Shown here: piece by piece, positions 56,362 to 56,665 of the stretch
How the letters are laid out: the number at the start of each line of letters is the position of its first letter
Numbering within the stretch: position 1 is the first letter of the stretch
Assembly: GCA_026390595.1 (NCBI GenBank)
Contig: JAPLFQ010000016.1
Location: forward strand, 1 to 64,000
Length of the DNA stretch: 64,000 nucleotides
Source: Ignavibacteriales bacterium
GTDB taxonomy: Bacteria; Bacteroidota; Ignavibacteria; UBA10030
Reading direction: 5' to 3'
Translations under genes and position numbers: made by a program
The notes under the pieces: generated by a model
Seen by the model: only the letters and a program-made list of their open reading frames with translations
Told to the model about the DNA's origin: nothing
The model's database searches: none

Positions 56362-56442
56362 CTGGGGTGCCAGGGATCTCCGCTGAAAGCGGATGCGCCT
56401 TTGGCGCAGAACCTGGGAATGCCCGTCAGAAAAGCTGACGGG
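56362..56442 (-). repeat. Hairpin element that repeats the 3' half of tRNA-Gln
   Basis: Bases 56362-56378 are identical to the discriminator, acceptor 3' strand, T-stem 3' strand and last T-loop bases of the intact tRNA-Gln (56594-56610). Bases 56409-56421 are identical to its T-loop start, T-stem 5' strand and variable loop (56611-56623). Between them sit 30 bases (56379-56408) forming two perfect adjacent hairpins: TCCGC/GCGGA with a 5-base loop and TGCGCC/GGCGCA with a 3-base loop. Next, in the anticodon-arm position, is a third hairpin CCCGTCAG/CTGACGGG (56422-56442). The tRNA 5' half is missing. It may be a REP-like element or an attachment-site relic. Confidence 0.7.
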
Positions 56443-56593
56443 ATGCCTGCCTTTGTTCTCCCGCACTCTTCCTCCATTGTGACGCAATATTCTGTCGGCC
56501 TGATCGCTTGACTGTCCGATACTAAACTTTTATTCTGTCTTACTCAGCAACACGCAGACGATATACATGAGCCGACCCATGTTACTGATCTTG

Positions 56594-56665
<72 letters not shown>

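Follow-up and report, generated by a model that had tools for sequence, protein, structure and literature searches.

At positions 56362-56442 of the 64,000-nt stretch of DNA analysed here (hereafter, the window), between the genes for tRNA-Gln and prs, lies a partial copy of that same tRNA gene, broken by hairpins, which raises the question of what this copy is and how it came to be there. Direct reading shows that 30 bases (17 nt + 13 nt) of the 3' half of tRNA-Gln are repeated within 56362-56421, in two blocks separated by exactly 30 nt. This interval consists of two perfect hairpins, each with a 6-bp stem and a 3-nt loop, and falls, in the tRNA sense, at the C56/G57 boundary (Table 1). The re-reading bears out an earlier note on this DNA, which had described the 30-base identity, the splitting of the T-loop by two hairpins and the replacement of the anticodon arm by an 8-bp hairpin. 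The neighbouring gene was also named correctly, given that the next gene, ~60 bp on, encodes a ribose-phosphate diphosphokinase of 315 aa (NCBIfam, E 2e-134). The copy is detected neither by ARAGORN nor by Rfam at the gathering threshold; the only tRNA that the two report in the window is the intact tRNA-Gln.

Table 1. Coordinates of the features at the tRNA-Gln locus of the window
Feature	Position	Strand	Evidence or remark
Intact tRNA-Gln (TTG)	56593..56665	-	ARAGORN; Rfam RF00005, 63.9 bits
Decayed GIY-YIG endonuclease gene, N-terminal half, one in-frame stop	56440..56568	-	tblastn, profile
Possible short tRNA-copy remnant 5' of the anticodon hairpin	56443..56448	-	weak in the window
8-bp hairpin replacing the anticodon arm	56422..56442	-	direct reading; similar hairpin in the same place in G002
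tRNA copy: end of variable region, T-stem 5' strand, T-loop TTC	56409..56421	-	= 56611-56623
Double hairpin between T-loop C56 and G57	56379..56408	-	TGCGCC AAA GGCGCA, TCCGCT TTC AGCGGA
tRNA copy: remaining T-loop, T-stem 3' strand, acceptor-stem 3' strand	56362..56378	-	= 56594-56610

The gap between the tRNA and the copy, roughly 150 bp, is occupied by a feature on which the earlier note had not remarked, namely, a decayed GIY-YIG endonuclease frame that starts at 56568 on the minus strand; the C-terminal half of this gene was not found. By tblastn, the relic is closest to an intact GIY-YIG gene beside tRNA-Gln in the sister genome G002 (L158; E 1.3e-8) and next closest to the one beside tRNA-Gln in G013. 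A profile of tRNA-linked GIY-YIG proteins matches the relic with E 8e-8 and gives no other match with E values of 1 or below in any of the six reading frames of the window. In G002, the order of features is tRNA-Gln, intact GIY-YIG gene (109-codon open frame, 80 codons when counted from the ATG; protein versus PF01541, E 6e-17) and tRNA-Gln copy. In the G002 copy, TCCCGTCAGC..GCTGACGGGA, which closely resembles the 8-bp hairpin of the window, takes the place of the anticodon arm. This is the only hairpin of that copy, which has an intact T-loop, runs into the contig end and, where the window has the possible remnant, retains more of the tRNA (positions 7-25). We consider it fairly probable that the feature in the window is what remains of a mobile element, the GIY-YIG gene of which has since died.

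Comparison of the same locus among relatives covered 29 tRNA-Gln loci, one per genome, in 28 of which an intact tRNA-Gln was called; each was searched for a partial copy of the tRNA up to 450 bp away and for a GIY-YIG sequence up to 700 bp away. One or the other was found at 10 of the 28 loci (G001, G002, G003, G004, G010, G013, G015, G019, G026 and G027), G029 has a decayed copy that is recognizable only by eye, and neither a copy nor a GIY-YIG sequence was found at 17 loci, including that of G005, which belongs to the same genus as the window. In G010 (L026) and G019 (L045), partial 5' copies of tRNA-Gln lie upstream of the tRNA, and in G026 (L044) there is a GIY-YIG sequence near tRNA-Gln. 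Two pairs of filled and empty loci, G004/G005 and G029/G030, have the native downstream flank after the damaged copy; for G004/G005 this order is clear by eye, although the automatic alignment matched the empty tRNA to the copy instead. The copy is therefore either the displaced original end of the tRNA gene or a duplicate in its place.

A mirror case is found at tRNA-Ser(GGA), where the GIY-YIG gene is located upstream of the tRNA in G000 and G004. In G000, a 70-nt 5' copy precedes the GIY-YIG gene, and the G004 contig ends before the copy region. No GIY-YIG sequence was detected within 700 bp upstream of this tRNA in G002 and G005, nor in the 125 bp available upstream in G003. The empty tRNA-Ser site rests on tblastn gene order and gene absence because no upstream DNA homology was found for this unit. 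The element is thus present in some relatives and absent in others at one and the same conserved tRNA locus, for both tRNA-Gln and tRNA-Ser(GGA). Two contigs (G001:C196 and G002:C13) end within the tRNA copy, the former inside its hairpin; accordingly, units may be lost at contig ends and the counts given here may be low.

The association between GIY-YIG genes and tRNA genes extends far beyond tRNA-Gln. We searched 32 genomes of the window's family with PF01541 and, from the better-scoring matches, examined 136 GIY-YIG frames of up to 230 aa in 128 loci. A tRNA gene on the same strand lies within 400 bp of 66 of these 136 frames, none has a tRNA on the opposite strand only, and 70 have none; in the genome of the window itself, 0.68% of the bases are that close to a tRNA. 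The GIY-YIG gene shares the strand of the tRNA in all of the linked cases that were scored. On the far side of the GIY-YIG gene, 54 of the 66 linked frames have a partial copy of their own tRNA (55 before and 54 after removal of matches that overlap other intact tRNAs), with 17 isoacceptors represented, and no far-side copy was detectable for the other 12. In a control count made without the intact-tRNA filter, a far-side match was obtained with the own tRNA for 56 of 66 frames, with a tRNA of another isotype for 2 of 66, with shuffled tRNAs for 0, 0 and 0 of 66 (three shuffles), and with the antisense sequence for none. The unit, then, consists of an intact tRNA, a GIY-YIG gene and a partial copy of the same tRNA, or the mirror arrangement in which the 5' copy comes first: among the 54 cases with a copy, the tRNA is 5' of the GIY-YIG gene in 30 and 3' in 24. 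Most of the listed GIY-YIG frames are ~80-135 aa long versus ~70 aa for the domain alone, and the catalytic residues (Y, Y, G, R, E) show 99-100% conservation in 76 tRNA-linked rows of the alignment.

A second set comprised 15 genomes picked for the T-loop hairpin pattern, one titled Margulisiibacteriota and 14 titled Patescibacteria or candidate phylum, all 14 of which we take to belong to the Patescibacteria group. In this set, 30 small GIY-YIG frames taken from a longer list include 10 with a same-strand tRNA, none with an opposite-strand tRNA only, and 4 with a far-side copy; the chance of proximity to a tRNA is higher here because these genomes are small. At the sequence level, this type of unit occurs at many tRNA genes in related and distant bacteria, Patescibacteria included. 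Phage records yielded two protein matches, both below 45% identity.

In the tree of 142 GIY-YIG domains (74 columns), 66 of the 139 inner branches remain open, and a small fraction of the rows stems from loci found via the T-loop hairpin. On this tree, linkage to tRNA genes requires 18 changes versus 47 for shuffled labels, and none of 500 shuffles gave a number as low. The isotype of the linked tRNA changes 19 times among the 76 linked rows, a bare count that carries no shuffled baseline. Branches are formed by rows of Leu(CAA) (seven), Arg (nine, joined by one that is unlinked), Asp (five) and Gln (three); one other Leu(CAA) row and another two of Asp are elsewhere or unresolved. Ser, Pro, Gln and Asn each occur on more than one branch, and both orientations of the unit are found within the Leu, Asp, Arg and Gln branches. 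By this comparison, several nuclease clades keep to one tRNA isotype.

Hairpins interrupt most of the far-side copies, whether in the T-loop, the anticodon arm, the D-arm or the variable arm. Judged by eye, the break sites are in the T-loop for Ser, Arg, Gln, Ala, Lys and others, in the anticodon arm or loop for Gln, Val, Pro and Asn, in the T-stem for Asp, and in several places for Leu. A perfect stem of at least 6 bp is present in 41 of the 54 copy regions, the other 13 being without a hairpin under this strict definition. The regions, as scored, take in some sequence behind the nuclease domain; they contain 1.28 hairpins on average versus 0.30 in shuffles, with a mean folding z-score of -2.5. 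In 27 of the 54 regions, a hairpin lies within 5 nt of the end of a copy block. The possibility that one hairpin family was copied everywhere was rejected, given that the hairpins of tRNA-Asp, -Asn, -Pro, -Arg and some tRNA-Ser copies differ in sequence. Tandem arrays of hairpin-broken 3' copies were also observed, with three copies of tRNA-Asn (105 bp period), five of tRNA-Val (~140 bp), two of tRNA-Arg, and an array of tRNA-Pro (array loci overall L056, L065, L059 and L112).

The T-loop hairpin pair in the window is a member of a dispersed family of the form TGCGCC..GGCGCA TCCGCC..GGCGGA. Exact matches to the canonical double hairpin number 84 and are spread over 28 of the 98 genomes of the order that were scanned, versus none for a control pattern; they do not include the copy in the window, which is a variant of this form. 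Because the double hairpin recurs in this manner, chance is excluded, in agreement with the earlier view that the copy is not a product of random decay. Among 81 unique copies, 17 are at the same T-arm place and 64 are outside T-arms; for 22 of the 81, a tRNA lies no more than 600 bp away, in 20 cases on the same strand. The proposal of the earlier note that a short mobile or REP-like family captured or targets tRNA-Gln thus survives in part: the hairpin pair is dispersed and mobility is probable, whereas capture of tRNA-Gln is too narrow a description for units that carry far-side copies of so many isoacceptors in one family.

A scan of species representatives, biased to T-loops because the pattern requires TTC and GA at the sides, detected 50 double-hairpin loci, the records of which are titled Ignavibacteria, Chlorobi, Bacteroidetes, Patescibacteria, Margulisiibacteriota and Nanoarchaeota. 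A GIY-YIG sequence was found within 1 kb of 13 of these 50 loci by profile search, and at 10 of them, one doubtful, by a cruder motif scan. The stems co-vary (TGCGCC/GGCGCA, TCAGCC/GGCTGA, TGGGCC/GGCCCA, TGAGCC/GGCTCA), an observation that, being made on copies selected for pairing, is supportive rather than a test, with 2 of the 66 rows looking like chance. Viral contigs yielded one match to the hairpin-pair pattern. In the Nanoarchaeota-labelled contigs (L068, L115), the pair is present once 3' of tRNA-Val and in two other places, which may reflect transfer or misbinning.

Among systems tested by experiment, SegB, the GIY-YIG homing endonuclease of phage T6, comes closest to the bacterial unit. 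According to the report on SegB (PMC13096335), its cleavage peaks are inside tRNA genes, and the motif RAWTSGAAC is present at 23 of 83 cleavage sites, where it boosts cutting but is not strictly needed, motif-free substrates being cut less well. SegB and its homologues resemble the bacterial unit in that the GIY-YIG gene is located beside tRNA genes of many isotypes and in the tandem amplification, but they are phage-borne, no isotype preference is reported for them, and the text of that report contains none of the terms 'hairpin', 'T-arm' and 'truncated tRNA' (PMC13096335). The bacterial unit differs in its chromosomal location, the single small domain of the nuclease, the far-side partial tRNA copy, usually hairpin-broken, and the clades that keep to one isotype. 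The reverse complement of the SegB motif, GTTCSAWTY, would correspond to the tRNA T-arm, an equation that is ours; the intact tRNA-Gln of the window departs from the motif at one position. Another report, on rRNA insertions of CPR bacteria, describes GIY-YIG proteins therein and makes no mention of tRNA (PMC11270868). Among the open-licence literature matches listed, there is no description of a unit composed of a tRNA, a GIY-YIG gene and a broken tRNA copy.

Given that the SegB motif equals the T-arm and that the hairpin pair of the window splits the corresponding stretch, we favour homing: the feature is probably the relic of a GIY-YIG homing-type mobile element that comprised a gene for a single-domain nuclease and part of the tRNA gene that this nuclease targets. 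The nuclease would cut a tRNA gene that lacks the element, and the break would be repaired from the donor, with the two tRNA pieces serving as portable homology arms, so that no species-specific flank would be needed. The donor piece would complete the cut tRNA, which would allow the host to survive, and the other piece would be displaced. The hairpins would destroy the nuclease site in the displaced piece, together with its tRNA fold.

Several observations do not fit easily with such homing. The intact tRNA beside the GIY-YIG gene retains the presumed target, so that self-cutting must be limited somehow, and mere disruption of the target would need no hairpins. Also counting against it are the unbroken T-loop of the G002 copy, the copy regions devoid of hairpins, the linked genes for which no far-side copy was detected, the low number of T-loop hairpin loci with a GIY-YIG sequence nearby, the 70 GIY-YIG frames remote from any tRNA, and the cutting of motif-free substrates by SegB. 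A further weak point is the small size of the enzymes; I-TevI has a separate DNA-binding domain behind the GIY-YIG nuclease domain. The hairpins may be read either as a block to re-cutting or as mobile ends.

Under the latter reading, which we regard as possible but on the whole unlikely, the unit moves in a REP/RAYT-like manner: the single-domain GIY-YIG enzyme would be a structure-specific nuclease, nicking DNA at hairpins or loops where it is single-stranded or extruded, tRNA genes would serve as landing sites because they are hairpins by nature, and the hairpin pair would also spread alone. REP elements are likewise dispersed GC-rich hairpins in pairs with a nuclease gene near them, but RAYTs are Y1 (HUH) transposases, whereas the gene in the tRNA unit encodes a GIY-YIG protein. 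Mitochondrial double-hairpin elements are also GC-rich and dispersed, like the family of the window, differing in their mitochondrial location, and we know of no unit of tRNA copy and nuclease gene associated with them. In favour of movement by hairpin ends, the pairs outside T-arms share the TY^RA site preference of the T-loop copies, and direct repeats of at least 5 bp are present at 16 of the 64 non-T-arm sites versus 1.8% of control sites, although these may be either target duplications or simple local repeats. Consistent with a structure-specific enzyme, the nearest solved structures by sequence, 1zg2 and 1ywl, are placed in the Slx1 family of structure-specific nucleases (PMC1564403). 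These UPF0213/Slx1-like proteins resemble the tRNA-linked ones in being minimal single-domain GIY-YIG proteins, but that family is described there as evolving mostly by vertical descent (PMC1564403), whereas the tRNA-linked proteins are seemingly mobile. On the other side, the mean stem scores at non-T-arm sites equal those of controls (2.41 versus 2.49), which leaves insertion at hairpin loops in general unsupported; stems of at least 6 bp occur at 5 of the 64 sites versus 1.1% of controls. The hairpins vary in sequence between tRNA classes, so they do not represent one terminal sequence, and the specificity of the far-side copies for their own tRNA is explained by homing but not by loop targeting alone. 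Hence hairpin-based movement explains the hairpins better than homing does, and the isotype-specific copies worse.

GIY-YIG genes of other clades that have no tRNA nearby are close to other palindromic repeats at several loci, as read by eye (L139, L140, L141, L151, L152, L155, L157 and L162; for example, GTCATTCCCGA..TCGGGAATCC, CATCCTGAGCG..GTCGAAGGATG and GTCATTGCGAG..GCGAAGCAATC), perhaps one repeat family per GIY-YIG clade; this, too, would suit movement by hairpin ends. More tentatively still, single-domain GIY-YIG nucleases and GC-rich hairpins could constitute a general hairpin-mobility system, analogous to REP/RAYT though based on an unrelated nuclease, in Ignavibacteria, Patescibacteria and others, of which one large branch would exploit tRNA genes, hairpins in their own right, as safe sites for insertion. 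Each nuclease clade in such a system would possess its own hairpin or repeat family, and the tRNA would be restored at each insertion, isotype by isotype.

The suggestion that the copy is an attachment-site duplication left by a tyrosine-recombinase integrative element is, by comparison, very improbable. A 3' piece of a tRNA is a typical att relic, and one tRNA-Pro array (L091) is followed by a frame that weakly matches integrase models. However, the gap in the window holds the GIY-YIG relic and leaves no room for an integrase, so that the att reading lacks support; 5' and 3' copies occur at similar frequencies, hairpins in loops are, to our knowledge, no part of att sites, and the linkage to GIY-YIG genes already disfavours such an origin. 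The frame after the tRNA-Pro array (231 aa; L059:462-601; L091:4711-5403) matches the XerD/XerC and integrase N-terminal models below their cut-offs. A regulatory tRNA mimic in the prs leader, to which the sense-strand position of the copy ~60 bp upstream of prs and its stable stems might point, is just as improbable: a conserved leader function is unsupported because 17 of the 28 related tRNA-Gln loci show nothing, and the same kind of unit accompanies tRNAs of 17 isoacceptors.

If cutting and homing by the tRNA-linked GIY-YIG nucleases are confirmed, tRNA genes would be homing sites for chromosomal endonucleases in distant bacteria, and the unit would represent a self-repairing design that needs neither an intron nor a conserved flank. 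Such elements would account for the odd pieces of tRNA and the hairpins found next to tRNA genes in bacteria and predict isotype-specific nucleases, with a candidate enzyme for each of the 17 isoacceptors in a single family. They would also give a probable job, that of selfish tRNA-gene elements, to the abundant small GIY-YIG proteins, which reach up to 14 PF01541 matches per ~1-Mb genome. Four genomes of 0.9-1.4 Mb (G099, G101, G102 and G112) have 12-14 PF01541 matches each, UvrC-sized frames included.
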